Assembly: GCA_017623685.1 (NCBI GenBank)
Contig: JAGAOP010000036.1
Location: 1-37,384 of the forward strand
From: Spirochaetaceae bacterium
GTDB lineage: Bacteria; Spirochaetota; Spirochaetia; Treponematales; Treponemataceae
Reading direction: 5' to 3'
Length of the DNA stretch: 37,384 nt
Shown: positions 1 through 26,126 of the stretch, in pieces
How positions within the stretch are numbered: position 1 is the stretch's first letter
How the letters are laid out: the number at the start of each line of letters is the position of its first letter
Translations under genes and position numbers: made by a program
The notes under the pieces: generated by a model
Told to the model about the DNA's origin: nothing
Databases searched by the model: none
The model's input: only the letters and a program-made list of their open reading frames with translations

Positions 1-98
1 GTACTTTTGTGATTGGAAAGAGATCCATCTTCCAGTCTGAACTGTACATAATAATTTCCACTGTGCCGACGTGTGTATAAATAAAAAGGCTCAGCCAT
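1..98 (-). CDS. Tyrosine recombinase / phage integrase, N-terminal fragment
   Basis: This is the first 32 codons of a gene that runs off the left edge of the window. Translation from the ATG at 98-96 begins MAEPFYLYTRRHSGNYYVQF, followed by a short stretch ending in DGSLSNHKS. As I recall, treponemal phage-type integrases open with a similar arm-binding motif (PFYLYxR, then YYVQF, then DGSL). The start is supported by a strong Shine-Dalgarno, AAGGTGG, five nucleotides upstream. A tyrosine recombinase would insert or excise an element at an attachment site. The gene points away from the initiator tRNA gene located 137 bp upstream, the standard arrangement for elements integrated at a tRNA 3' end. 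The catalytic domain lies outside the window, so activity and intactness cannot be judged. A second open frame (ATG at 49) was considered less likely. Confidence 0.75.
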   Translation of the reverse strand, partial: MAEPFYLYTRRHSGNYYVQFRLEDGSLSNHKS

Positions 99-177
99 GG
101 TTACCACCTTAAATTACCGTTCAAAAGACTTTCTACCAAACCTTTCAACCATTCATTAAGTAGTTCCACGCTGAGCC
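88..177 (-). promoter_or_regulatory. Leader hairpin over the integrase start, terminator-like
   Basis: An 8-bp inverted repeat, GGCTCAGC at 88-95 and GCTGAGCC at 170-177, closes a long imperfect stem in the minus-strand transcript. The stem continues through the start codon (paired region 97-100 with 166-169), then pairs the Shine-Dalgarno (103-107 with 160-164) and a TTAA/TTAA step. The 3' arm is followed by TTTTTATTT, so the structure also resembles an intrinsic terminator placed at the start of the integrase. Inferred role: keep integrase synthesis low and stop read-through from the tRNA promoter. Confidence 0.5.
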
Positions 178-187
178 CATTCAGTGA

Positions 188-227
188 TAGGTCAGAAGTG
201 ACCTAAATCCATATAACATAAGGATTT
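188..227. repeat. Two short hairpins between tRNA-fMet and the integrase
   Basis: TAGGTCA (188-194) and TGACCTA (199-205) form a perfect 7-bp stem with a 4-nt loop. AAATCC (205-210) and GGATTT (222-227) form a second 6-bp stem sharing one base. They sit immediately 3' of the tRNA gene, where the attachment-site arm and recombination-protein sites of a tRNA-integrated element would be expected. A CCATTCA direct repeat (149-155, 177-183) lies nearby. The role is inferred only. Confidence 0.4.
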
Positions 228-9362: not shown

Positions 9363-10526
9363 ATGAATATCTCTAGAAAGCACTTAATTATTACCCTTGC
9401 CGTATTTCTTGTATTAACGGCAACTTTAATCACATTTTTTGTTCTAAAACAAAAAACATTTACCATAGCCTTTTATAACACCCCTGAAAGTGTTCAAAAA
9501 ACAATTATAAAAGCTACAGAAGATTTTTTTCTTGCCCAAAGTAAAATAGAAGGCAAAAAAACTTCTTCTATTAACCTTAAAACCCTTGCTTTATCAACAG
9601 AGCAACCTATCAATAAGCAACTAACTGGCAGAAACAAGCCAGACTTACTCATTTGCCCCGCTGGATATGCAGCTAATCAGGCTATAAACCTTGCACAAAT
9701 AAACAAAGCAGGAGTTTCTATGGAACACTTGTCCCAAATGCCTCCTTTTGTAGCCGATAGTGCCAGCATCAAAGACAAAAAAGTTTTTGCCCTTCCTCTA
9801 CTTATTGATCACTATGAATTAGCTATCAACAGAGGAAAAGATGGAAATCCACAACTGTTGCTAGCAGGTGGAAATCCTCAGATTCTAATGGCATTTGTAG
9901 GTGCCATTGCAGAATCTCAGTTTGGACTTGAAGCAGCCAAGGAACTAATTTTAGATTGCCAAGAACATAAAGCTCAAGACATTCCGCTTATCCATGAAAT
10001 TGCAAAAATCTTAGCTAATGCAATTACCCAAGGATATTTACCTCAACAAGCCCTAAACATGAACCAAGAGGAACTAATTTTTTACATAGAAAAATCTTCC
10101 CCTAATCATGTATTTATGCCCCTATCTTTTCATCGGCTACTTCCCTTTGAGCCGTTAAAAAAATACGACAGCCATTTTTTGCCTAGCTCCAAACAAACCA
10201 TTAGAGCTCTTACCGCTCCAGTTTATTATGGAATTCCCCTTTCCGGTAAGAAAAAAGAAATTTCCACATTAGAAGGGCTATTTGCACAACTTACTTCCAT
10301 CGAGGGACAGGGCTTTTTATCTCAAGCCACTGGCTTAGCACCTACTCATGCTTCAGCTCCAACCCCAGATGTTCAGGCTGACGATGTTCGCTACTGGGTT
10401 GCAGCCACGAACTTGCCTTTACCTGCTTTAAGCGATGCATCCTTTAGCACCAGTTCCGAATTAGCCACCTTTGCCAGCGACTTTCGGAATTTAGTACTAG
10501 AATACGTTCACTCTAATTCCCGCTGA
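9363..10526 (+). CDS. Membrane-anchored extracellular solute-binding-like protein
   Basis: A 387-residue protein with an N-terminal membrane anchor or signal (about residues 8-28) and no lipobox cysteine. The rest looks like a type II periplasmic binding protein of the sugar-binding class: a KTFTIAFYNT opening strand, KPDLLICPAGYAA, then FALPLLIDHYELAINR, where such proteins read 'alP...d...l.yN'. No transporter genes are adjacent, so it may be an orphan sensor or scavenging protein. It starts at an ATG with no Shine-Dalgarno directly behind a promoter. Its last 30 bases overlap the end of the giant gene on the other strand. Function beyond ligand binding is not supported. Confidence 0.6.
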   Translation: MNISRKHLIITLAVFLVLTATLITFFVLKQKTFTIAFYNTPESVQKTIIKATEDFFLAQSKIEGKKTSSINLKTLALSTEQPINKQLTGRNKPDLLICPAGYAANQAINLAQINKAGVSMEHLSQMPPFVADSASIKDKKVFALPLLIDHYELAINRGKDGNPQLLLAGGNPQILMAFVGAIAESQFGLEAAKELILDCQEHKAQDIPLIHEIAKILANAITQGYLPQQALNMNQEELIFYIEKSSPNHVFMPLSFHRLLPFEPLKKYDSHFLPSSKQTIRALTAPVYYGIPLSGKKKEISTLEGLFAQLTSIEGQGFLSQATGLAPTHASAPTPDVQADDVRYWVAATNLPLPALSDASFSTSSELATFASDFRNLVLEYVHSNSR

Positions 10527-13500
10527 TATTTGAGGAATTAGAGAGTTAATATTTGTTTCTCCTGCCTGAACGTCAGTAGGCAAAAACCATAACTGACCTT
10601 CTGTATACAATGAGAAGGTTCTGAACATCTTTTGATCCTGTAGAGTAACTCTAGGGAATTCAATTTGCGCCAGAACAGCAGAAAGCATTTGAGGCTTTCC
10701 ACTTTGGGTTTCTGTAAACATAGAAAAGTTTGCACCAATAGCAAAACCCGCAGAAAGCCATTGCCAATCAGGTCCAAAGAAATATTGGAATGGAACATAA
10801 GCAATATTAGCCAACAGTTTAAGCCCAAATACATTACCTCCATATCGCATCTTTAAGCCTGATGCATCAAACAAATCCCGTTGAGACTGAGTAAACTGAC
10901 CAAATTGAGCTTGAAGTTTTACGTTGTCGTCAAAGAAAGTTAATCCCAAACCAACATCGTAAAGGGTCGCACCCCAGAAATGCCAGTCAAAATACAACCC
11001 TTGGATAAAGGTAGGCACTTCGTAAGAAGATTTATCTCCACTTCGCAAAGAGAAAGTAACATTACTCAATCCCATATCATCTGAAGATAAACCAGAAAAT
11101 TCAATCTGTTCGTTAAAGCGACCACCTTCACCTGGCGATATCAGTTTAATATATGGCAAGGTTTTATCAATTTGAATAATAGTTCTGGTAATTGCAACTT
11201 CTCCATTTGCCATTGTAGCTCTGGCTACAATAAAGTGATATCCTTCATCCAAATAATCATTTTCTAAACGATAACTCCAAGTTCCATCTTTTGCAACTTT
11301 TGTAAAGGTTTTACCATTATCAAAACTAAGTTCAACCTTTTCTACCTTTTTCTTTGCTAAAAGCTTCTTTTCTGCCTTAGAAGTTTCTTTAGATGATAAG
11401 GTGTCCATATCCGATTGAGTTAGAACATAACCTGCTCTACCTTCTAGATAAGGTCGCCGTACGGCATAATCTAATAAGGTAAAATTGTCTATACTAATCC
11501 AAGGCCCAGAAGCTTCATAGAAAATATAATGACTATTGGATTCTACAATAGCTTGATTTGTTGTAACTGCCCGTACCGTAATTTTATGTTCACCAGAAGA
11601 AACGAGTTCTGGAGTAAGTTCAAACTTAAATGCGTTGGTTTTAGAAAGTTGAGTTTCTGCACAGAAATTGCCATCAACATACATCAGCATTCGTTCAATT
11701 GGAGTTTCTGAAGAAACCGTACCATAAACATTAAAAATACCTTGCATATGTTCCCCGTTCATTGGGTACATAAGATTTACTTTTGTTGCTGCAACAGATT
11801 TATCCAAGCGAATATTTCTAGAAACTCGTCTAGTATTTTCACCAGCATCCGAACCTGTTAATTCAACATTGTAAAATCCATCTGGCAAAGTAGATAAATC
11901 CACAGCCTGAGTAATAATTTGAGCTGGCACCAAATCAATACGTTCTAGATGAGGAGGCAAGGCTGGTGCATCAGGATCCAAGGCACGAATTGTAATATAA
12001 AGATCAACCAATTCAACGTTATCAATAGTTTGTCCAGAGAAGAAAACCATTCCTGAAGTGGAAGAATCGTCAAGAGGTAATTCTAGGGTAATATCTGGTA
12101 TCGTATTGTCTATTGTAATCAAACTAGAATATAAAGCTTCAATTCCGTAGTTATCATATATTCGTAAGAAAACTACGTGTGTACCGTCTTGAATCATACG
12201 GGTGTCAAAACTGTATTCCCATTCCTCTGTACCCACTGCATCGTTGTAAGTATTTCCATTATCCAAAGAAACTTGAACTAGAGAAATTCCATTTTTGTCA
12301 GAGGCCCAACCTTTCATCACAATCGAACCCTTCACAGTGTCTTCAATGGCAGGCTCTGTTACAGCACCCTTTGGTTCTTCCAAAGATACACGGAAATTAC
12401 GGCTTACTTCTTCCCCCTTGACCCCATGAATATCTTCTGCATACACATAAATTGTATGTTCATTATCTGTCATGGTTTCAAGAGGTATCTCGATAGAATA
12501 TGCTGTTCCATATTCTTCAAGTTGAATATATTCGCCATCGTCAATTCTGTAACTGACTTTAGATTCACCGTCGTCATCAAAAACTACACCAGAAATAATA
12601 AAATCTGTGGTTATTATTTGGTTATCTTCTGGCAAATGAATTTCTGGCCGAGGCAAATCAGATTGATTATCTATAACAAAATCCCATTGTGTTACAGTTT
12701 GAACATTCCCTATAACATCACTAAATTGGAAACTCATTTCTGCTTCCATAGGGGCATCTACAGTACCTACTGTTGCCACTGGCAAAGAAGAAAGTTCTAC
12801 AGCAACTTGACCTGCAGATGGATTTTCTGCTGCGACCTGTTGTGTTCCTACTGGAGCAAAATATGCTCCCGATACAAGTTTACCATTGTCCTTAACCTTA
12901 AACACAACAGTAGTTTCACCATTCACCACATCCTCTGCAGCAGGAGTAATAATTTGAACCTCTGGGGCTATAGTATCCTTGTGAATCGCTTTTGATACAA
13001 CATAACTAGCACCTAAGGAATCTGTAACTTTTATATCAACTGGAATAAGTCCGTCATTAAATGTAACAAAATCCAATTCTGTATCAATGACGACATTTTC
13101 TTTGGTTCCTGTTGAAGAAAGCGTAACAGGAGACCATGTAGTTCCACCATCTAATGACAATTCTACAGAAGCAATTCCGTTGGCATCTGTGGCAGTTCCA
13201 GTTAATTTTACCTTATTTTGTACCCATTGATTATTAATAGGTGAAGTCAATTCAATCTGGGGAATATGATTATTTACTTGGAAACTGATATCAGAAGAAA
13301 CATATTGAACACCTTCTGAATCCTTTGCTACAACAGAAATATTTTCATAAACACCACACTTTTCAGAGCTTAGAGTTACCATATTTCCATCAACAGTGGC
13401 TGAAATTGTTCCAGTATTAGTTTTTTCTTGAACAGAAACTTCTATTGGTTCACGAACATTAAAGTACCCAGAAACAATATTGTCCCTTGATTTTAGCCAA

Positions 13501-16500
13501 TAAATTTCTTCTTTATCATTTATTAAAGTTGCATCCTTGTTTCTAATTGAACCAAAAGTAGCATTTTCTGTGGTAGTACCACTTTCAGTTTCAACACTTA
13601 CAGAAACACCATACCACTGAACTGGCAGATTTTGTAAAGGTATATCTGCTTCAATTACAGAAGGGTTGGTTGTCTTTCTTATTGTAGCTTTACCACTTTG
13701 AGATGAGCTACCACCATAAATTACAGGTTGGTTTTCTATTTCTTTTAGTGGCTTAATAGAATAATTAACTGCTTTTACTGTTTCGCTACTGGTTATCTTT
13801 AAAGAAAGAAGTGGCATACCTGTTTTTACAGTTTCAGAAGAAACTTGAATTAATTCACCTGCACTATAAGCAGCTGAACCAATTTTTGTAAATTCAATCT
13901 GTGGCTGAACCTTAAAATTCGAAGTATATTTTGAAGAAATTGATGAATCTCCAGCTTTACCCGTCAAAACAATAGAATTCACTCCTGGCTTCAATTTATC
14001 TCTAGAAATAATTCCTGCTTCTTGTGTTAAATTTGTAACATTTCCACCATTTAGAGTACAAGCCACAGTTGAAACTTGACCTTGATAAACTATGGTATAA
14101 TAAATGTCTTTCCCTTCTACCCAAGTTACAATGGGCTTTCCTGCTTTTACAGTTTTTTTCCCAGTAGCTGAAGGGGAAGGAAGATTTGGTATATTTCGAA
14201 CAAATTGAGAAGCGTAGCTTTCCGTTCCATCGCTATTTTTAGCAATCACTTCGATAATATGAATTCCTTTCCCAAAATTAGAAGCTGGAAGTTCTATATC
14301 AAATTTTCCATCAGCAGACAATGGTAATTCTTTTGTTTCGCTGGGAGGAGCTGCAACTGCAGTTGAAATAAGTCCATCTGGAGTTGTTTGCACTTTAACC
14401 GATATAATTCGGTAAACAGCAGAAACATCCCACTTAGAAGAAACCTGTCCTCTTAAAGCCACAGGATTATTTCCTTCCACAATGCCGCTGGTTTCTAATA
14501 CTAAATTAGGAGCATCTGTAGGATTTAAAAAACAAAGCTCCTTTGATTCATATTCAAAACCTCTGTCACTTGTTACAACAACTTTTACAGGTTCAGAAAG
14601 ACCTCTTTCTTCCCCAGCAACAAGTCGGATTGTATTTCCATCCAATGATACATTGGCAAATTTTGTAGCAGGTCGTAATTCTACAGAGGAGGCATTTCCT
14701 CCTGCAAAGAAACCAGTTACTTCCTTATTTTTAGAAAAATCAACCTTGCCTTCTTTGGAAACAGAGCTATCTTCAAAAACAACAGTCTGTGAACTATCGA
14801 TTTTAGTAAGATTTGTTAAATAAAGCAAAAATTCTTGTTTACTTTCACGATCATAAATATCTTTTGCAACAACATCCACTGTTACTACTCCCCAAGGAAT
14901 AGATGAATTAAGTGGTAATGTAATAGTTGAAGTAGTTTCAGCCTTACTAGGAACATACTTTCCGTAAGCTTTACCGTTTACAAACCATTCAACAGAAGTT
15001 ATTCCACAGGCAGCAGTAACTTTTGTAACAAAATTTGTGCCTGATTCTGGATGAACTTCTATACCTGGTTTATAATCTTTGCTTTCTTTGCTAGAAGAAA
15101 TTTTTGTAGAATTAAATACGGGTTTTTCGCCCTTTGCCACAAAATTTATTGTTACAGGAACACCTTTAACTCCATGAATATCTTCTGCATACAAAGTTAT
15201 TTTATGGCTACCATTAGCAAGAACTTTATTGTCTGCACTAGACATTTTCTTTGCAAAAGCTTCTTTTAAGTCAACACAAAAAACTCCATCACATTCTACT
15301 GCTGATTCAGTTCCATCATCTACAGAATAATATAGTTTTGAAACTCCATCATCATCTTTAACAATACCTCGAACAAAGAGTTCTTGTTCTGTAGCATCCA
15401 TTACAGCGGAAGTAGCTGGATATAAAACTTCTATGACGGCTCTATCTGCAGCTGAATCTACAGAAATTGTTCTTTTTTCTGTGCGACGGTTTCCAGCAGT
15501 ATCTGTAGCTGTAATACTAAATACTACAGATTTTTTTTCGTAATTTCGTAGGTCGAATTCTTTTACCCAATAAGGGTTACCAGCTACAATCTCAAATTCA
15601 CCTGAAGTATCTCCAAGGGTCCATTCCAATTTAGAAAGACCTACTGTGTCAACTGCAGAACCAGCTACAGAAAAAATACCATTTACGGATTCATTTTTTT
15701 CGGGAGATAAAATTCGTACTGCTGGCTTTGTATTATCTACAAAGAACAAAAAGGATGAAAGCCCTGTACTTCCTTGCTTATCCACAGCTTTAAACCAACA
15801 CACTGCTGCACCATCTTTCATTTCAAAAGTATCGATTGGTGCGCTAAAGAAACCATGTCCTGTTTTTTTGTCAATCTCTAATTTTAAGTTTTTGTATGTA
15901 ACCCCACCATCTACAGAATATGCCAAGGATTCTATTCCGTTACCATCAGAAACCCTTCCCTTAAGATTAATTTCTGCGGAAACTAAGGAACCAATTTCGT
16001 AGTTTGTAACTTCTGTTACTGGTTGGCGACGGTCTAGATGCCAAGATACTTCTACCGGATGCCCTTGGACTCCATTTATATCAACGCCATAAACCTTTAT
16101 AGTATGTCGACCTTCTGCTAAATTTGTCGTGTCAAGATAATAAGACCAAAAATCAGTACCTTCTGCTCGAATCACATTGGATTTATCATCATCCAGTATT
16201 AATTCAACATATCCAACTGCATCATCATCAACACAAATACCAACAATATTCAAGTTGCCAGGAATTCGCATATCCATAATAGGGTTAGTAATCGAAATAT
16301 TTGGCAAATCTGAATCTGGATCTATCATTACGTTATAAGGCCCTGCTGTATTTTGATTTCCACCTTGATCCTCTGCTGTAACAACAATATTATACTTACC
16401 AGGCTTCTTATCCGTTATATCAAAAGATTCTTGCCAACTGTCAAGAGTTTCGGCCTGCTTTTCTGTTATGTCTTTTTTTCCACCAGCAAAGATAGCAAAA

Positions 16501-16547
16501 GAAAACATAAGGCAAAATAATGTAAATGTAATAAATCGTTTAGTCAT
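10497..16547 (-). CDS. Giant exported Ig-repeat protein with C-terminal barrel-like domain
   Basis: A 2016-residue protein. Residues 1-21 form a signal peptide cleaved near FAIFA-GG. The next 1800 residues are tandem beta-sandwich (Ig-like) modules of about 90-100 residues, each with an entry strand such as IxITNPIM, a DDDG-type acidic turn and an inter-domain 'VDNTxP' linker. A cassette ending in (A/V)xDIxGVxG recurs near residues 155, 455 and 1370. A lysine-rich linker lies near 1720. The last ~170 residues (about 1845-2016) are aromatic/glycine amphipathic strands ending in Phe (GIRVNVF), like a small outer-membrane barrel. Inferred role: an envelope-spanning or surface adhesin/structural protein. 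It is downstream of the 3144-residue gene with a 14-nt gap and a good ribosome binding site (AAGGAAGGG). Confidence 0.75.
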   Translation of the reverse strand: MTKRFITFTLFCLMFSFAIFAGGKKDITEKQAETLDSWQESFDITDKKPGKYNIVVTAEDQGGNQNTAGPYNVMIDPDSDLPNISITNPIMDMRIPGNLNIVGICVDDDAVGYVELILDDDKSNVIRAEGTDFWSYYLDTTNLAEGRHTIKVYGVDINGVQGHPVEVSWHLDRRQPVTEVTNYEIGSLVSAEINLKGRVSDGNGIESLAYSVDGGVTYKNLKLEIDKKTGHGFFSAPIDTFEMKDGAAVCWFKAVDKQGSTGLSSFLFFVDNTKPAVRILSPEKNESVNGIFSVAGSAVDTVGLSKLEWTLGDTSGEFEIVAGNPYWVKEFDLRNYEKKSVVFSITATDTAGNRRTEKRTISVDSAADRAVIEVLYPATSAVMDATEQELFVRGIVKDDDGVSKLYYSVDDGTESAVECDGVFCVDLKEAFAKKMSSADNKVLANGSHKITLYAEDIHGVKGVPVTINFVAKGEKPVFNSTKISSSKESKDYKPGIEVHPESGTNFVTKVTAACGITSVEWFVNGKAYGKYVPSKAETTSTITLPLNSSIPWGVVTVDVVAKDIYDRESKQEFLLYLTNLTKIDSSQTVVFEDSSVSKEGKVDFSKNKEVTGFFAGGNASSVELRPATKFANVSLDGNTIRLVAGEERGLSEPVKVVVTSDRGFEYESKELCFLNPTDAPNLVLETSGIVEGNNPVALRGQVSSKWDVSAVYRIISVKVQTTPDGLISTAVAAPPSETKELPLSADGKFDIELPASNFGKGIHIIEVIAKNSDGTESYASQFVRNIPNLPSPSATGKKTVKAGKPIVTWVEGKDIYYTIVYQGQVSTVACTLNGGNVTNLTQEAGIISRDKLKPGVNSIVLTGKAGDSSISSKYTSNFKVQPQIEFTKIGSAAYSAGELIQVSSETVKTGMPLLSLKITSSETVKAVNYSIKPLKEIENQPVIYGGSSSQSGKATIRKTTNPSVIEADIPLQNLPVQWYGVSVSVETESGTTTENATFGSIRNKDATLINDKEEIYWLKSRDNIVSGYFNVREPIEVSVQEKTNTGTISATVDGNMVTLSSEKCGVYENISVVAKDSEGVQYVSSDISFQVNNHIPQIELTSPINNQWVQNKVKLTGTATDANGIASVELSLDGGTTWSPVTLSSTGTKENVVIDTELDFVTFNDGLIPVDIKVTDSLGASYVVSKAIHKDTIAPEVQIITPAAEDVVNGETTVVFKVKDNGKLVSGAYFAPVGTQQVAAENPSAGQVAVELSSLPVATVGTVDAPMEAEMSFQFSDVIGNVQTVTQWDFVIDNQSDLPRPEIHLPEDNQIITTDFIISGVVFDDDGESKVSYRIDDGEYIQLEEYGTAYSIEIPLETMTDNEHTIYVYAEDIHGVKGEEVSRNFRVSLEEPKGAVTEPAIEDTVKGSIVMKGWASDKNGISLVQVSLDNGNTYNDAVGTEEWEYSFDTRMIQDGTHVVFLRIYDNYGIEALYSSLITIDNTIPDITLELPLDDSSTSGMVFFSGQTIDNVELVDLYITIRALDPDAPALPPHLERIDLVPAQIITQAVDLSTLPDGFYNVELTGSDAGENTRRVSRNIRLDKSVAATKVNLMYPMNGEHMQGIFNVYGTVSSETPIERMLMYVDGNFCAETQLSKTNAFKFELTPELVSSGEHKITVRAVTTNQAIVESNSHYIFYEASGPWISIDNFTLLDYAVRRPYLEGRAGYVLTQSDMDTLSSKETSKAEKKLLAKKKVEKVELSFDNGKTFTKVAKDGTWSYRLENDYLDEGYHFIVARATMANGEVAITRTIIQIDKTLPYIKLISPGEGGRFNEQIEFSGLSSDDMGLSNVTFSLRSGDKSSYEVPTFIQGLYFDWHFWGATLYDVGLGLTFFDDNVKLQAQFGQFTQSQRDLFDASGLKMRYGGNVFGLKLLANIAYVPFQYFFGPDWQWLSAGFAIGANFSMFTETQSGKPQMLSAVLAQIEFPRVTLQDQKMFRTFSLYTEGQLWFLPTDVQAGETNINSLIPQISAGIRVNVF
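10511..10543. terminator. Hairpin across the convergent gene ends
   Basis: CTCTAATTCC (10511-10520) and GGAATTAGAG (10534-10543) form a perfect 10-bp stem with a 13-nt loop. The plus-strand gene's TGA stop (10524-10526) lies in the loop, and the minus-strand gene's stop is 12 bases to the left of the stem. T-runs are weak on both sides, so it may be a bidirectional 3'-end hairpin rather than a strong terminator. Confidence 0.45.
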
Positions 16548-16561
16548 ATTTTAACCCTTCC

Positions 16562-19500
16562 TTATTCTGAAACCCATGTACCAAATTCAAGATTTGAACC
16601 AAGATAACCAACAACAGGCTTTCCTTCACTATTGAAGTCTAGACATACATTTTGGAAGGTTGCAGCACCTCCTTGAGGAACTGTAATTGCAGGAACCGTC
16701 ATATATTCCCATTTTCCTGTTGTATATCCTTCATCATCAACACCAGGTACTACAGTTTCAATTCCATTTACAGCTGAATTTGCATAAGCAAGTTTAATAG
16801 AATCTTTACCACCGGCTTCAGTTGCATTATAGTAGGCAATGTAAGGAACATTGTCTTTCAATTTAATTTGTGTCCAGTTACCCACAGCTGATGCTTGGTC
16901 AACTCTAACCATTTCATACTCAGTTTCTAAGAAATGTTTAACATAAATGTATACAAGATCTGAATCGCCAGAGTCGTAAGCTGAAATATGAACACCACCT
17001 GATGAATCAAGACACATAGAAACATAAGATCCGATATAGTCAGGGAATACAATTGAAGAGGTGTCAAATTCCCTTGCTGCAGATGGATTACTACCATCTA
17101 TAGATGTCGCAGAAACTTTCATTACCAAACGGCCTAAAGATTCGTCATAATAAACAATTACAACTCTACCCGCTCCTGATACATCAAAACTAAAATGATT
17201 TGAAGCACTAGTTGCTGCCGTAATTCGTGTTGCATTATAATCAGAGTCACCTAAAGTTGAAACTTGAGAATAAGTTCCACCATCAGTAGCATATCCACCA
17301 GAGAATAAAGGATAATCACCTTCGTTTCCTACTTTGAAATTACGGAAAATAAGTTCTTTATTAGTTGTATTTGCATCAAAATATAATTGATATATACTTG
17401 CAGCACCGGTAACTGAATTACCTTTTGCTATAATCTTAGGATACTGATATCTACCAAGTAACAATCCTTCACCATAATCCACATATTCCAATCTAATTGC
17501 ATTATTATTAGAATGACTAGGTTTCGATCCATCAAAACCACTATAAGTAACTCCATCTCCCCAACCTTTACCAGATGGATGTAATTCAGCAAATCTATCG
17601 TAAATATAAGCCATTGAAGATCCATCTCTGTTGTACAAAGTAATATGGTGGAATCTACCAGATTCATCACGAGCCATTCCCATTTGATCCCAAATAGAAG
17701 CTTTTATTAAGTATTCTGTATAAATTCTGCTACCATCTGTACCATTAATTTTAGCACGTTGTGGCATAGCATGAGAATCATAATATTTACCAGCACCACC
17801 ATCATCAATAATACCTTCAATGCCATCATCTCTTTCTGGATCTATTGGACCACCTTTTAAATCAATATATCCAAACACAGGGTCATCACCTTCCATTATC
17901 ATTGTAGGATAATAACCATTTTTAATACCTGTATCTTTCATATCAAAGAAGCGTAAATATCTATCATCATTTAATAGAATATTCTTTGTTTGAAAATAAT
18001 CAGGTTCGCGGTTTGGCATTTCACCATAGTCATCTATAGTTATAGTACCTTCTGTTCCTGTTGCAATAAAGCTACCTAGGGAATCATTATTATTCACATT
18101 GTTTAATGTTCTTATTCCGTTAGTAAATAATTCAACATAGCCAGAATTTGCCACATTATTTGAAAGTGTCAAAGAAGTATAATCTGTAGCAATATTAGAA
18201 TAAGCTATAGCTGTACCACTAGTACTGGTTGCTGTTTCCATAGATGCTGAATCGACTATTCTAACAGCACTTGGATTAAGGTTAAAACCGTTTACAGAAA
18301 TAAAGTTCGCTGTTGTTCCTTTAATTACAGAATATTTACCACTAGCTGAACGAATATTATTCGCCTTTAACCCACTTAAAGTTCTGTTTGGAGTTGAAAT
18401 TCCTGTTATGTAAGGAACAATATCCATTTGATAAGTTGGCTTATTGTAATCATTTTGACCAAGAGTTCCTTGTTTAGTAGAAGGAGAAATATTAATAGCG
18501 GAATTGGTATGATCCACAGCCATTACTTTAAAATCGACATCAAGGGCAGCCACATTTGTAATCTTTGAAGTATCAAAACTCAATGTCCAAACTACTTTAT
18601 GTCCCTCTTGGTTTAGGAATCCACCGTCAACTTCATCTTCTGAAATAGTTACTTCCCAACCATTGCTTTCAATAGTAGCAGTTGGAAGAATCCACCCTGT
18701 ACCAATTTTATAATAAGCAAACTGGTAATAACCACTTGAAACACCAGAAGAACCATATCCACTATTTGTTACGTAATTAGTTGGAGTAAATCCAGGTATT
18801 TGCATCCACAAAGATGAAAGTCGAACATCGTCGTAGGCATATCCTCTAATTGTAATTCTTCCAGAAACCTTTGGATCTATGTCATAAATTCCAGTTCCTG
18901 ATTCTGTAAAAATAGTGTCAGGCAAATCGGATTCAAATTCAATGTGGCCATTTTTACTACTATTGGCATAGAGAGAATTATCCTTGCTACCTTTCCAATA
19001 GAATGGGTCAATTACGATTTTTGATGATACTGCATCTGTTAAGTCCTGTTTCAACGTGGCATTTAGCACTGTCCATTGAGAATCCACACCAGGATCTGTT
19101 TCTTCTGTACTATCCCAGAAACTAAACCTATATGTATTTGTACTGTCTTCGCCATCTGCACCAATAGTATTATTTGTAAGAGTAAACCCGTCATTTATAT
19201 CGAATACCTGTACTGAACCAGTTTCAGCCACATTTAAACGTTCTCCGGAAGTACTCTTACTGAATCGATAATACATCGGTTCTGTGCCACCGACAAATTG
19301 AGGTTTAACCGCTAATCCAGATTTTACAGTCCAAGTTCCAGTGTTCAAATCCCAAATGTCTGTACCAAATTCAGTGTTTCCTGTACCATCTTCGTTAAGT
19401 AGCAAATAGAATGTAGTGTATTCTTTTTCTTCGTAAGAACCGTTACCACTTAAGTCTGTTCCTAATTTTACAGAGGTAATTCGGGGTCTATTGTTCGATA

Positions 19501-22500
19501 CTGTTGAAGTAACCTGTCCAAAGCGGCTGTTACCTGCTTCGTCAAAGGCCACAACACAAACTTGAATAGGACCATCTGGTATATTCTTTGAATTTACACT
19601 AATATCCCAGGTGTAGTCATAACCACTCTTTGAGTAGGTTTCTACCATATCATCGCCGTCATCATTTTTTACAGTACCATTTGAATTCAGGCTTTCACCA
19701 GTATTATCTAAAACCAAACCATAAACGAATTCAGCTTCTGTAAATTCAGTTGAACAAGATGGACTAAACTTAATTTCATTTCCATCTATATTGGAAATCA
19801 ATCGATAAATTCCACCAATCTTTACAAGTCCACCAGGGCGAATATTTTTGTTTGTTGAAGCTCCATCAAATGTTAAGAAGTCAGAACTACTTTCGCTACC
19901 GCGGCCTAAAGATGTTTTTTTAAGGACTGGCAAATTATCATCATTAATATATATGCTACCATTTGTTGCATTTGCACTCGTCATGGAAAGGTTAAGATCT
20001 GTTCTGTTATCCGAAGATTCCATTACATTGTAAACACGAGTCGTATCACCTTGGCGCTTAAAGAAAATAACCATTCTGTCAAAACCGCTTCCATCTTCGG
20101 AAACACGGCCAGCCAAAGTGAACAAACCATTACTGTTTTGTACAGCTTCTGTTGAAGAAAGAAGAATTCCCGTGTTGCCATATGCGTTTTTGTACAACAA
20201 TGGAGTATTAACTGTTGCTCCATCAAATATAGGAGCTTCGTTATCTATGTTCAAAGAAAAATCTCTAACCGAAGTTTTAGGAGATTCACTGTCATCATCT
20301 TCTGCCACAACATTTATAGTCCAACTTCCTGAACCGCCGTCGCTTCTAACAACAGGAATCTTCATATCGTACCAAGTGTTGTTTCCTATGGTATGTGCTG
20401 TAAACCAGTCGGATGTATTCAAATTACCATTGGAAGAACCAGTTACAGTAATTGCTTTTAATCCATCATCATCAGTTATGGAACCAGTTAAGAACCAATC
20501 TGTGCCTTTAATATACATATCTGTACTATATTCTTGTTCGGCTATAGCTTCTCCGTTGGAGTTAAAGCGTTTCAGTTTTAAAGAATCGTAAGAACCAAAC
20601 TGAGGTACACTATTGTTTACTGAAATATGAATTATATCAGACCAAGCACCAGCTAACTGACCATTTTCACTGTCATTATCTATTGCCACAGCTCTTACGT
20701 TTAGTGTAGCTCCGTTATTTTCAGAATAGTTCAAACCTGTAAGACCTGAAACTTGTAACGAAGAAGACCAACTTACTGAACCTGTAGCTTTTATACCATA
20801 TTGTCCAGATAGTCCCGTGATTTGCAAAGGAGTTATACCAAATAAGTTTTTATATAAAGCTGCATCTGTGTCATTTGCAGTTGCCCAATCAAAATCACCG
20901 TCACCATTTAGGTCATATTGTAACCAAACAGAATCTATACCTTCGTTATCTTCTGCTGACCCAGTAATACGAACAGTTCCACCCATAATAACGTAACCAA
21001 AATCTCCAACTATTTGGTCATGCCGTGGATAAGTAATTTCAACTCTAGGTTTGTCTGCATCTGGATTGTATCTAATTGTTGCAGCATCAGTTATATATCC
21101 TAAATTTCCTGCCTTGTCTGTAACCCTAAACCAAATTGGTAAGTCATACAAACCAGAACCAGAGCTTGTTTCATATCCAGAATATTTCGACTTCAAAGAA
21201 GATAAAGCAAAGTCACCAACATAATCTCCTAAATCGGTAAAGTTTATTGCCCAAGAAGTTGTATAGAAAGATGACATTTCCTTCCAAGAAGAAATAGTTG
21301 CTGGATTTGTAGTTCCGTACGGAGGCAACGCATATTGCATTGATAAAATACCAGAATTACCATTGGATTCATCTGCAACAAATCCACTCATTGAAACTTC
21401 GCCTGTAACTTCTGTTGTTTTTGAAGGAATAACGCTTGAAATTGAATCTGGTGAATCATTATCGATTATCACGACTCTAGAAAATTGACCAGTCATTCCT
21501 GATTCGTCTTTGGCAATAACTGTTATTGTGTATGATCCACTTGGTGAATTAGAAAGATCTAATAACTCAGTGTTATAATAATGATATTCAGAATAATTCA
21601 TAGTTGTAGAAGTCAAATTGCCAAGATTTGTTAAAGAAACAGACAAATTTCCTGGAGTTGTTACTGTGTCTTCTGCCTGTGTTCTAAAATATAGCTTGGA
21701 CATTGCACCGCCTGTTCCACCACCAAATACCATATTATTTGTAACGGCGGAAAAACTTGTGCCATCAGTAGAAACTTCTAATTCCAATACTGTCGGTGGA
21801 TTTGTATCAAGTCCGAAAGTTATAGGGTGCCAAACTTTTTCTACCGACTGATACTGAATATATGGACGTTCTAAAACATCATTATCCTCATTATAAATGG
21901 TAAATACTGTATTTTCTGTATCAACCACTTTGAAATATGCAATATATGATCCATCTGTTCCTGTTGATTCAAAAGAATACAACCAGTTTCCATCAACAAT
22001 GGTTAATTCCTGCCAATTACTATCATTAAAAGAATCCCCTTCTCTTACCACTTGAATATAAAAACCATCTATTCCATCATCATCTGTAACCGTACCCGAA
22101 ATTTCTGCACTACGTAAAATTGTTGTACCGGCAGTATTTACGTTACTTAGTTTTACAAGAGGTCGGTCTGTGTTTTGGTCTGCAGAAAGCATAAGAGTAT
22201 CATCTGTTGTGGAATTGCCTGCTTTATCAGTAAAAGCTACCATCAATAAAATCTGAATACCTGCTTTGCTACCGTCTCTGTCAAATGTTGCGGAATCAAA
22301 TACGCTTGTGTCAAATCCAGAAATTGTCCACATTCCACCTACCATAGGACTAATATTCAAGCCATCTATTTTCACATCGCTATCTACTGTATTACCAATA
22401 GTTTTAAAATTATCGCTAGTATCTTTTGCATAAAGAATTGGCATTGCCCCTTCTTCGATGTTTACATCTGTAACAGTTCCAGTAATAGTGATTGTTTTGT

Positions 22501-25500
22501 TCACTGTAGCATTTGAATTATGAGAAGTATATATCACACCAGGAGCTGTAACATCCCGAATAAAACTTCCAAGTTTTACATCTTCTGTAGAATTTCCTGC
22601 TACATCTTCTAATCTTAGATATAAAGTGTGACTATTTTCTGCAAAACTAGAAATGTCAACGTTAACAGAGGATTCTCCATTTACCAACAGTGTACCAGAT
22701 GAAATAGCCAATGCTTTTTCAAAACCGTGACTTGTTCCTATATAATATTTACTTAACCCACTAGTTGCATCAGAAGCTGTAAAGGTTACTGTTACATTGT
22801 TAGATGATGTTACAGAATCTGCTACATCTAAATTGTAACTTTCCAAAACAGGGGCTTCTGTATCAATATTCAAAGTTGAAATTAAGAAAGAAGCAGGATT
22901 TTCAGCTTTATCTTTCAAGGTGAGTGAAACAGTATGAGAACCTTCAAAACCGAAACTTTCTGTTACGTTAAAGTCGTTGAAAGGTGTAACAATTACTTCT
23001 TTCTTTGTAGATTCATCACCTTCGTCTAAATAATAAGTCATTGTAATAGAACTAAGATTTGCTTCTGTAATACTTCCACTTAAAGTCAAAGCTGATTGAG
23101 TAAACCAAGGCTTTGAACCTTGTGCCAAAGGATATGAAACCTTTGTACTTCCTTGGGAAACATAAACTGTTTGTAACTTAGGTGAGTTCTTGTCTACCTT
23201 ATAAGAAACGCTAGTTTCAGCTTGACGATTATAAATATCTGTAACTCGATAAGTCTGAGTATAAATTGCACTTTCATCAACTTGAGAATCAAGTAAAGCA
23301 ACATTACAACTCCAGTTTCCATAGTTATCGCTAGTTGTAACTGAAGGAGCAGGATTCAAAGTGAGTTCTGCATTGTTCTTTTTGACAGAAACCAATTCTA
23401 CAGAAGCAATTCCATTCGCATCACTTGCAGTTCCTACAACTGTTACAGATTGAGAAGCAAATTCGCTAGATGGTGATGTTATTGCTATAACTGGAGCGTC
23501 ATCATCTATATTAAATGTAACTTCAGATGTTGTTTCTTCTAACCCATTAATATCAGTTAAAACAAAACATACTGTATGGCTTCCACTTGTTCTTTTTTCT
23601 TCTGGTATTGTATAAGATATAGACTGAGATGTAGTTCCGTTAAGTTGGGCTTCTGTGTAAAGTTCAATTGGTTCTTGATCATCTAGTTTAATCTTTACAG
23701 ATTTTAGCCCATCATCGTCTTTTGCTGTACCATATATTGTCCAGCTTCCCATACCCAAAAGATTCTGTGCAGAATTATTATCTTCGATTAAGTTAGAATA
23801 AGAAACTGTTGGTTTATCTGTAGCTTGGTTTATATACACTGTTTTTTCAACTGGATTACAAGTATTACCGGCTGAATCTGTTGCTGTAACGATGATTTTT
23901 AGATTACGCAAATCTATAAAAAAGGAATTATCTGTTGTGTCCAATTCTAAAGTAAAAGCAGCAGAAGCATTAAGTGTTCCAGAAACCACGGGAACATCTC
24001 CAAAGTTTCCTTGCTCATCCTCTAAAAATAAATCGTATTTTACACCATCTACAGCTTTGAGCATATAATTATCAGATATAGTACCTTGAATTTTTATACG
24101 CCCGTTTACGTTATCAACCCTAATTCCGTCATCTACTAAAGGTGAAATAGTGGAAATAGTTAAATCTGGATCTTTTGTATCTAAGTTTACATATCTTACA
24201 ACACCAGCACCTGTTTCATTGTTTACGCTATCAAAAGGTGTAAAGGTTAATGTCATTGAATACAAATCTTCCCCTAAAGGTGTTGCAAAACAAGTCTCAT
24301 CAATATTTACTGTCCAGTTTCCGTCTTCGTCTATAGAAATTTTTTCTGTTGGAATAGACACATTATTGTAACCGCTAACAATTGTTCCAGTTGAATCAGT
24401 TACTGTAATGTTACAACTTTTTAACTCTGGCAATCCTTCTGCTGAATACAAAAAGATTTTACCACTATAGGTTAATTCCATTTCGTTGATTACAGAATTA
24501 TTTTCAGGACCAGAAGAAACTTTTAATTCAGGCGGCTTATTATTTGAAATTACCCTAAAGCCATATCCGTTTACAGAATTGGGCAACAAGCTATTGGTTT
24601 CAAAATCTCGACCTTCTACAACAACATCGTAAGTATGGCCGCTAACAAGGACACCAATGGAAAGACTTATTGTGTAAGAAGTATCCACCATTTTTACTGT
24701 TGCTTTTTGCCTTTGGGTTTCCGCAGCAGTTTTTTCTGCCTCGGACATATTCGCTATATTTTCACTAGATTCATATAAAACTGCAACTTCTTGATCATTT
24801 TCTGTTAAAATTATCCTAATCGAATCTTCTACCAAATCAATGTTATCAGGACCAGGTGAAATAGAAACATTTATTGTCCCTTCATTAGATACGTCTGTAT
24901 ATTCTTCTCCACTTTTTATTGAATACCCACCAACGTCATAGGTAGGATTATTTTTGGGGTTTAATGAAAATTTTGAAAGCCTTTCTGATGAAACTTCTTC
25001 TGTCGGAATCTTGTAGCTATCAAGGATTCCCATAATATCTTGTATTTGACTCGCTGAGCCATAAGTTCCGTTCATTACTTTTATAATATCCTGATTGGTA
25101 AGCCCCAAACCATTATCGCTATAAATATCGTTATATATTTCTGAATATAAATAATATCCTGTGGAAATGTTCCCTTCTACTTCTCTTTCTCTTTCTCCTC
25201 CTCGACTTTCTTCTGGCGGATTATATTCTTTCGCTAAATCTTCTACTTCTATCCCACAATATATATTTTCTTTTGTTTCTTCCGCATCTCCATAATATGC
25301 CTTATATACTTGATACAGTTTTTTCTCGCGTTCGTTTGTCGGCTCCTCTGCATAATACTGCCCTACTATTAACTCTAACCCTACTCCTGATATATTCTGG
25401 AACCTTTGGGTTTCACCTATCTTTTCTAACCTTCCATCTTCTAACTTGTTATACGCTGTAAAATATAAAGCTCCTAATCCGGTGGTATCACTTATGTCAC

Positions 25501-25996
25501 CTGTTATTTTTATCGTTTGCCCAAAAGACGAATCTAACGATGGACTTTTTATTACTACTATTGGAGCTGTATTGTCTATCGTATACAATGATTCCGCCAC
25601 CGATGTTCTTGAGGCTGAGTCCTTCGCGGTTACTGTTACTCCGTATTCTCCATCCGGTATACTAAATTCTCCATCTCGCTTTTCGTTTATCACTACGGAC
25701 CAAGTTCCTTCCTTCTTGTCTACCTTCCCCTTGTATGGTCCATATTTTTTTCCCTTTTCTGTATTTGATGTGAACAATACACTTACTTCTTGAACATATG
25801 TTTCATCATCTGTTGTTCCTTTCATTGTGAATGTATTTCTTATTACTGCTCCCTTTCCTGGACTTGTTATAGCTACTACAGGAGGCTGTGTATCTACTGA
25901 TGTTCCAAGTCCTACTTCACAGTCAAAAAATGAAAAAGCTATTATAGCTACCAATACTAATATAGATAAATTCGTTTTAAAATTATTTTTTGCCAT
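16562..25996 (-). CDS. Giant Ig-repeat putative lipoprotein with propeller-like C-terminus
   Basis: A 3144-residue protein. I place the start at the ATG at 25996 because AAGGAGAAGGA stands directly upstream; the open frame extends to a GTG at 26020 that would swallow this site. A hydrophobic signal (about residues 8-24) ends in FFDC followed by EVGLG, so Cys26 may be lipidated, although Asp at -1 is unusual. Residues ~35 to 2400 are tandem Ig-like modules with TQPPVVAITSPG-type openings and repeated DDDG turns. A Glu/Tyr-rich insert occupies about 210-305. The last ~260 residues repeat a blade-like pattern (CLDSSGGVHISAYDSG, IKLKDNVPYIAYYN, VCLDFNSEGKPVVGY), suggesting a beta-propeller. The first ~300 codons use ATA, GTA and TTA far more than the rest. 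Probable surface or periplasmic fibre; ligand unknown. Confidence 0.75.
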   Translation of the reverse strand: MAKNNFKTNLSILVLVAIIAFSFFDCEVGLGTSVDTQPPVVAITSPGKGAVIRNTFTMKGTTDDETYVQEVSVLFTSNTEKGKKYGPYKGKVDKKEGTWSVVINEKRDGEFSIPDGEYGVTVTAKDSASRTSVAESLYTIDNTAPIVVIKSPSLDSSFGQTIKITGDISDTTGLGALYFTAYNKLEDGRLEKIGETQRFQNISGVGLELIVGQYYAEEPTNEREKKLYQVYKAYYGDAEETKENIYCGIEVEDLAKEYNPPEESRGGEREREVEGNISTGYYLYSEIYNDIYSDNGLGLTNQDIIKVMNGTYGSASQIQDIMGILDSYKIPTEEVSSERLSKFSLNPKNNPTYDVGGYSIKSGEEYTDVSNEGTINVSISPGPDNIDLVEDSIRIILTENDQEVAVLYESSENIANMSEAEKTAAETQRQKATVKMVDTSYTISLSIGVLVSGHTYDVVVEGRDFETNSLLPNSVNGYGFRVISNNKPPELKVSSGPENNSVINEMELTYSGKIFLYSAEGLPELKSCNITVTDSTGTIVSGYNNVSIPTEKISIDEDGNWTVNIDETCFATPLGEDLYSMTLTFTPFDSVNNETGAGVVRYVNLDTKDPDLTISTISPLVDDGIRVDNVNGRIKIQGTISDNYMLKAVDGVKYDLFLEDEQGNFGDVPVVSGTLNASAAFTLELDTTDNSFFIDLRNLKIIVTATDSAGNTCNPVEKTVYINQATDKPTVSYSNLIEDNNSAQNLLGMGSWTIYGTAKDDDGLKSVKIKLDDQEPIELYTEAQLNGTTSQSISYTIPEEKRTSGSHTVCFVLTDINGLEETTSEVTFNIDDDAPVIAITSPSSEFASQSVTVVGTASDANGIASVELVSVKKNNAELTLNPAPSVTTSDNYGNWSCNVALLDSQVDESAIYTQTYRVTDIYNRQAETSVSYKVDKNSPKLQTVYVSQGSTKVSYPLAQGSKPWFTQSALTLSGSITEANLSSITMTYYLDEGDESTKKEVIVTPFNDFNVTESFGFEGSHTVSLTLKDKAENPASFLISTLNIDTEAPVLESYNLDVADSVTSSNNVTVTFTASDATSGLSKYYIGTSHGFEKALAISSGTLLVNGESSVNVDISSFAENSHTLYLRLEDVAGNSTEDVKLGSFIRDVTAPGVIYTSHNSNATVNKTITITGTVTDVNIEEGAMPILYAKDTSDNFKTIGNTVDSDVKIDGLNISPMVGGMWTISGFDTSVFDSATFDRDGSKAGIQILLMVAFTDKAGNSTTDDTLMLSADQNTDRPLVKLSNVNTAGTTILRSAEISGTVTDDDGIDGFYIQVVREGDSFNDSNWQELTIVDGNWLYSFESTGTDGSYIAYFKVVDTENTVFTIYNEDNDVLERPYIQYQSVEKVWHPITFGLDTNPPTVLELEVSTDGTSFSAVTNNMVFGGGTGGAMSKLYFRTQAEDTVTTPGNLSVSLTNLGNLTSTTMNYSEYHYYNTELLDLSNSPSGSYTITVIAKDESGMTGQFSRVVIIDNDSPDSISSVIPSKTTEVTGEVSMSGFVADESNGNSGILSMQYALPPYGTTNPATISSWKEMSSFYTTSWAINFTDLGDYVGDFALSSLKSKYSGYETSSGSGLYDLPIWFRVTDKAGNLGYITDAATIRYNPDADKPRVEITYPRHDQIVGDFGYVIMGGTVRITGSAEDNEGIDSVWLQYDLNGDGDFDWATANDTDAALYKNLFGITPLQITGLSGQYGIKATGSVSWSSSLQVSGLTGLNYSENNGATLNVRAVAIDNDSENGQLAGAWSDIIHISVNNSVPQFGSYDSLKLKRFNSNGEAIAEQEYSTDMYIKGTDWFLTGSITDDDGLKAITVTGSSNGNLNTSDWFTAHTIGNNTWYDMKIPVVRSDGGSGSWTINVVAEDDDSESPKTSVRDFSLNIDNEAPIFDGATVNTPLLYKNAYGNTGILLSSTEAVQNSNGLFTLAGRVSEDGSGFDRMVIFFKRQGDTTRVYNVMESSDNRTDLNLSMTSANATNGSIYINDDNLPVLKKTSLGRGSESSSDFLTFDGASTNKNIRPGGLVKIGGIYRLISNIDGNEIKFSPSCSTEFTEAEFVYGLVLDNTGESLNSNGTVKNDDGDDMVETYSKSGYDYTWDISVNSKNIPDGPIQVCVVAFDEAGNSRFGQVTSTVSNNRPRITSVKLGTDLSGNGSYEEKEYTTFYLLLNEDGTGNTEFGTDIWDLNTGTWTVKSGLAVKPQFVGGTEPMYYRFSKSTSGERLNVAETGSVQVFDINDGFTLTNNTIGADGEDSTNTYRFSFWDSTEETDPGVDSQWTVLNATLKQDLTDAVSSKIVIDPFYWKGSKDNSLYANSSKNGHIEFESDLPDTIFTESGTGIYDIDPKVSGRITIRGYAYDDVRLSSLWMQIPGFTPTNYVTNSGYGSSGVSSGYYQFAYYKIGTGWILPTATIESNGWEVTISEDEVDGGFLNQEGHKVVWTLSFDTSKITNVAALDVDFKVMAVDHTNSAINISPSTKQGTLGQNDYNKPTYQMDIVPYITGISTPNRTLSGLKANNIRSASGKYSVIKGTTANFISVNGFNLNPSAVRIVDSASMETATSTSGTAIAYSNIATDYTSLTLSNNVANSGYVELFTNGIRTLNNVNNNDSLGSFIATGTEGTITIDDYGEMPNREPDYFQTKNILLNDDRYLRFFDMKDTGIKNGYYPTMIMEGDDPVFGYIDLKGGPIDPERDDGIEGIIDDGGAGKYYDSHAMPQRAKINGTDGSRIYTEYLIKASIWDQMGMARDESGRFHHITLYNRDGSSMAYIYDRFAELHPSGKGWGDGVTYSGFDGSKPSHSNNNAIRLEYVDYGEGLLLGRYQYPKIIAKGNSVTGAASIYQLYFDANTTNKELIFRNFKVGNEGDYPLFSGGYATDGGTYSQVSTLGDSDYNATRITAATSASNHFSFDVSGAGRVVIVYYDESLGRLVMKVSATSIDGSNPSAAREFDTSSIVFPDYIGSYVSMCLDSSGGVHISAYDSGDSDLVYIYVKHFLETEYEMVRVDQASAVGNWTQIKLKDNVPYIAYYNATEAGGKDSIKLAYANSAVNGIETVVPGVDDEGYTTGKWEYMTVPAITVPQGGAATFQNVCLDFNSEGKPVVGYLGSNLEFGTWVSE

Positions 25997-26046
25997 AAGG
26001 TTCCTTCTCCTTAAAAGCACCGAGAAAAAAAATTATTATTTATATT

Positions 26047-26075
26047 ATTATCGGACAAAAACTCCATTTTGTAAA
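26047..26075 (-). promoter_or_regulatory. Promoter of the giant Ig operon
   Basis: Minus strand: -35 TTTACA (26075-26070), 17-nt spacer, -10 GATAAT (26052-26047). It gives a leader of about 45 nt before the ribosome binding site and the ATG at 25996. It is back to back with the XPB promoter, so the intergenic region is divergent. Confidence 0.6.
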
Positions 26076-26090
26076 GTTTTTATTTTTTAT

Positions 26091-26119
26091 TGCCTTTTTT
26101 CGATTGATTGTGTAAAATT
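26091..26119 (+). promoter_or_regulatory. Promoter of the XPB operon, leaderless type
   Basis: TTGCCT (26091-26096), 17-nt spacer, TAAAAT (26114-26119). The ATG at 26127 follows after seven bases, with no Shine-Dalgarno between, so the transcript probably begins at or next to the start codon. Confidence 0.6.
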
Positions 26120-26126
26120 GAACGTT

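Follow-up and report, generated by a model that had tools for sequence, protein, structure and literature searches.

A leader with two mutually exclusive, conserved hairpins precedes tRNA-linked integrase genes in Treponemataceae

The integrase gene beside a tRNA-Met(CAU) gene of a Treponema-like bacterium is preceded by a leader that can fold into two alternative hairpins, A and B, of which B hides the ribosome binding site and the start codon. Both helices are conserved in related leaders with compensatory changes, both use the same arm, and both are tied to promoter-less, tRNA-linked integrase genes. Based on these observations, we propose, with a probability of roughly 0.6, that the leader is a two-state RNA switch that keeps the tRNA-linked integrase quiet on read-through transcripts. 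On this reading, translation would be lowered by B, A would represent the ON state, and switching would run from A to B.

Results

The integrase gene at the tRNA junction

The window, a stretch of 37,384 nucleotides, is one contig end of a Treponema-like genome (Table 1). On the minus strand, the integrase open reading frame begins at position 98 and runs off the contig end at base 1. Its full-length relatives are tyrosine recombinases of 433-463 aa, the closest named ones coming from Treponema sp. MAGs. The neighboring tRNA-Met(CAU) gene can be read from its sequence as an initiator tRNA, since its anticodon stem contains three G-C pairs and positions 1 and 72 do not pair. Its promoter is the only promoter-like site found from the tRNA upstream region to the integrase start, and beyond it lies chromosome with an Lrp/AsnC-type regulator and an aminotransferase. 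Further into the window, two adjacent giant open reading frames on the minus strand (10497-16547 and 16562-26020; 2016 and 3152 aa) carry bacterial Ig-like repeats and probably encode surface proteins. Downstream of an XPB/ERCC3-like helicase gene (25827-27974, plus strand) lies a gene that matches Helicase_C_3 weakly (27974-30121, plus strand), and the two are possibly a bacterial XPB-type pair.

In three relatives with complete or long contigs (G051, G248 and G070), a 43-bp copy of the tRNA 3' end is found 21-36 kb away, followed in G051 and G070 by a strong terminator (e.g. AACTTCCTGAAATCTCAGGAAGTTTTTTTT), which marks these loci as tRNA-targeted integrative elements that displace the terminator of the tRNA gene. 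The duplicated 3' end typical of such elements was thus observed in these three relatives, the window itself being cut by the contig end.

Table 1 Features of the integrase leader and its surroundings in the window
Feature	Position	Strand	Sequence or description	Basis
Integrase gene, 5' end	1..98	minus	M A E P F Y L Y T R R ...	
ATG of integrase	98-96	minus		
Integrase codons 2-4	95-87	minus	GCT GAG CCT	
U-rich run	87-79	minus	TTTTTATTT, directly after stem, within codons 4-7	
Shine-Dalgarno	110-103	minus	AAGGTGGT	sequence
Hairpin B (putative sequestor)	88..178	minus		folding and covariation
Direct repeats in hairpin loop	129..151	minus	TGGTTGAAAG (151-142) and TGGTAGAAAG (138-129)	by eye
Shared arm	166..178	minus	GGGCUCAGCGUGG, pairs in A or in B	
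Hairpin A (putative anti-sequestor)	167..200	minus	CAC-UU-CUGA-CCUAU / AUGGG-C-UCAG-C-GUG	alignment, alifold
Imperfect palindrome P0	204..228	minus	TAAATCCTTATGTTATATGGATTTA, hairpin with GUU loop, directly after tRNA	
tRNA-Met(CAU) gene, predicted initiator	235-307	minus	3' part = attachment core (attL)	
tRNA promoter	350-322	minus	TTGACA-17-TAATAT	

Hairpin B encloses the ribosome binding site and the start codon

In hairpin B, the shared arm (178-166) pairs with 100-88, which comprises the start codon and codons 2-4, and the inner part (164-156) pairs with the Shine-Dalgarno region. The predicted MFE of 80-180 is -35.8 kcal/mol (z = -5.33), and none of 200 shuffles was as good. The start region of the integrase pairs with sequence far upstream of it at 0.81, compared with a mean of 0.13 at the control starts, which are those of 17 other open reading frames of the window and have a mean z of about -1. 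The original prediction had placed a hairpin hiding the Shine-Dalgarno sequence and the start codon at this site and had proposed folding the complement of 80-240; this folding gave z = -4.14. The placement of the hairpin holds, while the palindrome P0 and hairpin A are absent from that description.

Hairpin B is strongly conserved in an alignment of 33 distinct leaders, with 93.0% of the base-pair cells of its 16 pairs being paired, and pairing falls to 27-50% when the partner is slid. Eight of the 16 pairs have changed on both sides, yielding 58 compensated cells, which none of 500 shuffles reached; these covariation controls correct only partly for the relatedness of the leaders. The conserved pairs include bases of the start codon and of codons 2-5, and RNAalifold recovers the helix without guidance. 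Moreover, when arms were swapped among 24 leaders that are <80% identical, the average energy weakened from -27.2 kcal/mol (native) to -17.5 kcal/mol (swapped), and none of 2000 permutations was as good as the native combination. Compensatory changes in the block of the Shine-Dalgarno sequence and start codon, for which the original prediction had proposed a search in homologous junctions, are present at dozens of tRNA-Met/integrase junctions, and both elements lie within a stable, conserved leader stem.

Codon choice follows the same pattern. The Lys3 codon is AAG in 33 of 38 hairpin leaders, compared with 31% AAG elsewhere in these same genes; in a hairpin-less clade, it is AAA in all 15 leaders (AAG, 0/15). 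Among non-Watson-Crick cells, G-U outnumbers A-C by 84 to 8 in hairpin B and by 26 to 6 in hairpin A; in B, a single end pair contributes 26 of the G-U cells and the start-codon G-U another 32, and 26 versus 8 remain when both are set aside. This excess of G-U over A-C fits folding of the sense mRNA, rather than of the opposite strand or an inverted repeat in double-stranded DNA.

At some loci (L006, L007, L013, L015, L146 and L147), the hairpin still precedes an integrase gene that is frameshifted or truncated, indicating that current selection does not act on every leader. Many elements with a broken integrase look like immobile remnants.

Loss of the hairpin accompanies presence of a promoter-like site

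No promoter-like site was found between -135 and -1 in any of the 41 tRNA-Met-group hairpin leaders with a simple consensus scan (9 of 12 matches), which would miss other promoter types. A promoter inside the hairpin was ruled out on this count (0/41), and so the transcript start within the hairpin that the original prediction had named as evidence against itself has no counterpart in this consensus scan.

According to the protein tree, the MNKPYLLF clade is nested within the clade that bears the hairpin. It has neither an adjacent tRNA gene nor the hairpin, and all nine of its distinct leaders have a promoter-like site at about -65 to -70. This co-occurrence of a lost tRNA neighbor, a lost hairpin and a promoter of its own is what would be expected if the hairpin controls outside transcripts, and the clade serves as a natural control in which tRNA neighbor and hairpin have been lost together. 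The hairpin would then block translation of the integrase from RNAs that come in from outside, above all those from the tRNA promoter.

Hairpin A competes for the shared arm

Directly upstream of the shared arm, a CAC-UN-CUNA... sequence provides an alternative partner for it. The resulting hairpin A reads CAC UU CUGA CCUAU cacuga AUGGG C UCAG C GUG in the window, and relatives carry the variants CUAA/UUAG, CCAA/UUGG, CCGA/UUGG, CAAAA/UUUUG and CCCG/CGGG. Its ten pairs are paired in 93.3% of the cells of the 33 leaders, compared with 17-45% in slid controls, and five of them have changed on both sides (28 cells; 0/500 shuffles). Alifold run on the first 45 columns finds hairpin A unaided (0/500 column shuffles), and swapping its arms weakens the pairing (0/2000 as good). 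One G of the shared arm has two partners, a C in A and the U of the AUG in B, and is kept in 32 of 33 leaders. Since the same arm is used by both hairpins, A and B are mutually exclusive, and the leader therefore contains two exclusive helices, each conserved with compensatory changes. The earlier idea that integrase output depends on opening of the structure thus gains a specific candidate route, namely a competing conserved hairpin on the 5' arm.

Hairpin A is weak, at about -4 to -11 kcal/mol, so that at equilibrium B wins in every folded sequence. In equilibrium folding of the growing transcript of the window, A is favored (0.98) in nascent transcripts as far as the start codon; with codons 2-4 added, A drops from 0.98 to 0.00 and B rises from 0.00 to 0.99. 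Hairpin B alone could in principle act as a static guard against read-through, keeping translation low without any switching and leaving A as a by-product. This explanation accords with B being far stronger than A and with the hairpins occurring only where no promoter of the gene's own was found, but we regard it as unlikely, because the 5' strand of A has compensatory changes of its own that B does not need, and because A is retained, as judged by eye, in the held-out loci L144-L147 and L156 found by the covariance model.

At locus L052, about 65 bp are missing between the tRNA end and the shared arm, with P0 and most of A gone and much of B left, and this locus may represent a natural A-minus variant. 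A leader peptide starting at 180 (ATG GGC TCA ...) was ruled out, as the closest relatives have ATA for ATG.

The U-rich tail is explained by coding

The original prediction also assigned a terminator role to the hairpin. A U-rich tail does follow the stem in the window, but its counterparts in relatives read TATTTAAT, TATTCGTT and the like, and the U-run is conserved no further than coding explains. The 8 nt after the stem contain 5.30 U on average in the hairpin-bearing relatives and 5.67 in the hairpin-less clade; as the tail is no U-richer than in that clade, the conserved F/Y/L/I codons account for it. An intrinsic terminator that replaces the displaced tRNA terminator, with the Shine-Dalgarno pairing as a side effect, would suit the window, where TTTTTATTT comes right after a GC-rich outer stem, and the relocation of native tRNA terminators to attR. 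Such a function is nevertheless improbable as the main role of the leader, given that the pairing tracks the Shine-Dalgarno sequence and the AUG, which a terminator does not need, that the loop is about 60 nt long, and that a terminator scan of the window did not flag hairpin B. In the window, the U-run at 79-87 may be a weak terminator at which some termination is possible.

Distribution of the leader in spirochaetes

Searched at the DNA level, 274 genomes of the family yielded twelve homologous leaders with 68-98% identity. All of these except one belong to a different genus, as horizontal transfer would lead one to expect. Integrase relatives were found by protein search in 142 of the 274 genomes, and about 100 leaders were compared. 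In the tRNA-Met group, the order is tRNA end, palindrome P0, hairpin A, direct repeats, Shine-Dalgarno sequence and ATG. With a covariance model, this tRNA-Met form was detected in 20 of 393 genomes of the phylum, all of them Treponemataceae. No close integrase relatives were found in viral contigs.

Integrase genes at tRNA-Cys, Arg, Thr, Lys and Met genes of Treponemataceae have leaders unrelated in their letters, with an arm that is mostly GGGCGU... In these other-tRNA groups, the arm is again complementary to the Shine-Dalgarno sequence, the AUG and codons 2-4, and is preceded by an A-like hairpin (arm swap, 0/5000). The pattern is also visible in several loci of other spirochaete families. 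Beyond Treponemataceae, the swap test gave 19/5000 with a 110-nt upstream window and 31/5000 with a 100-nt window, but was not significant (2296/5000) with a 165-nt window that includes the tRNA. Because this support varies with window length, the extension of the leader pattern beyond Treponemataceae is only suggestive.

Repeats and palindrome at the attachment site

Repeats equivalent to the direct repeats in the loop of hairpin B recur near attR in G051, G248 and G070, and the loop repeats are likely candidates for integrase arm-type sites. The inverted repeats as a whole might likewise be parts of the attachment site (sites for the integrase, an excisionase or a bending protein, or a single-stranded DNA hairpin) rather than an RNA device, in line with the location of the region in the attL arm and the recurrence of the candidate arm-type repeats near attR, but this is very improbable, since the strong bias of G-U over A-C points to mRNA, as does an arm that follows the start codon and codons 2-4 even between sequence families that are unrelated, and since a double-strand binding site would conserve letters rather than compensate.

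Palindrome P0 (CCTTAYGTTRTAAGG, with a mostly fixed GUU loop) is present at most tRNA/integrase junctions, across tRNAs and spirochaete families, and seems to vary independently of the downstream leader (L122 versus L123, L082 versus L122). In the tRNA-Cys group, a T-run after P0 gives it a terminator-like look. The TGnTATAA match that would make P0 an extended -10 promoter does not persist in the other tRNA groups.

Promoter-like boxes pointing across attR are located about 50-90 bp before the far-end tRNA fragment in G051, G248 and G070; the box in G051 is TTGCAT-17-TAAAAT, in the region of about 29480-29610, on the reverse complement of L066-L068. In a circular form, these boxes would drive the integrase through the leader, like a circle promoter. 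In G248, a decayed second integrase leader (L162; G248:C1:2873711-2873797) lies directly after attR, and may testify to tandem or successive insertions at one tRNA-fMet gene. Whether the element is integrated or circular, hairpin B is predicted at 0.80-0.82, so that integration state alone does not flip the switch; a switch based on integrated versus circular form alone was ruled out accordingly.

Discussion

In the two-state switch that we propose, the element would occupy the 3' end of the gene for the initiator tRNA, and the leader would form the 5' end of the integrase mRNA. Insertion would carry the native terminator of the tRNA gene away to the element's other end, and with the terminator displaced, transcription from the tRNA promoter can enter the integrase gene. 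On the emerging RNA, hairpin A would fold first and leave the ribosome site free; after codons 2-4 have been copied, the more stable B would capture the shared arm and hide the Shine-Dalgarno sequence, the start codon and codons 2-4. With the balance tipping from A to B at this point, ribosomes would have only a short time before the start site closes. Very low integrase output from tRNA read-through would be the default, and the integrase would be switched on by a factor or condition that keeps A in place or opens B.

We also put forward, tentatively and with less confidence than the switch itself, that such leaders constitute an undescribed two-state class of regulatory RNA for integrase translation in tRNA-inserted elements throughout spirochaetes, in which the shared arm fits both its upstream partner and the start-codon context of its own integrase, and a cellular or element-borne signal times the exit from the chromosome. 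Binding of Int or a directionality factor to A, or processing of the tRNA transcript, may be examples of such signals.

Many islands and prophages lie downstream of tRNA genes and face strong promoters able to drive the integrase, and the usual explanation for why they are not excised all the time is that the integrase promoter overlaps attL. The leader family points to a different, RNA-level answer to read-through, shared by many elements within a single bacterial family and perhaps by others outside it.

Leader stems hiding the ribosome sites of mobility genes are already known, and an integrase leader with two competing hairpins was not found in the open-access literature, an absence that is weak evidence. 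Riboswitches and attenuators have two exclusive helices with a common arm, one of which hides the Shine-Dalgarno sequence. The present leader resembles them in its arm-sharing, exclusive helices but gave no Rfam match above the gathering threshold. In IS10 and IS50, the extra 5' arm of read-through transcripts hides the transposase start, and transcripts from the element's own promoter start inside this arm and escape. Fold-back hiding of the start on outside transcripts is predicted here as well, whereas no promoter of the IS10 type was found inside the hairpin (0/41 leaders, by consensus scan only).

A 5' stem-loop of IS200 tnpA hides the ribosome site and keeps movement rare (PMC12594629, citing Beuzon and Casadesus 1997 and Beuzon et al. 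2004). The likeness lies in a stable leader stem-loop over the ribosome site of a mobility enzyme, and the difference in that IS200 encodes a transposase, whereas here the stem belongs to a tRNA-targeted tyrosine integrase and extends into codons 2-5. The IS200 stem-loop is not known to have a second hairpin that shares an arm with it. KplE1 intS is autoregulated, with the integrase promoter overlapping attL (PMC2951348). In both cases the integrase lies beside a tRNA gene, and the arm-type sites in the KplE1 int leader have candidate counterparts here; KplE1 control is transcriptional, through the attL promoter, whereas no promoter-like site was found here between the tRNA and the start by consensus scan alone. 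In ISPpu9 tnp, too, a 5'-UTR structure buries the ribosome binding site of a mobility gene; weakening of the structure raised reporter activity 26-fold, and its opening is regulated, by the antisense RNA Asr9 (PMC8450116). The opener in ISPpu9 is thus an antisense RNA, whereas the competitor in the integrase leader is a sequence in cis.
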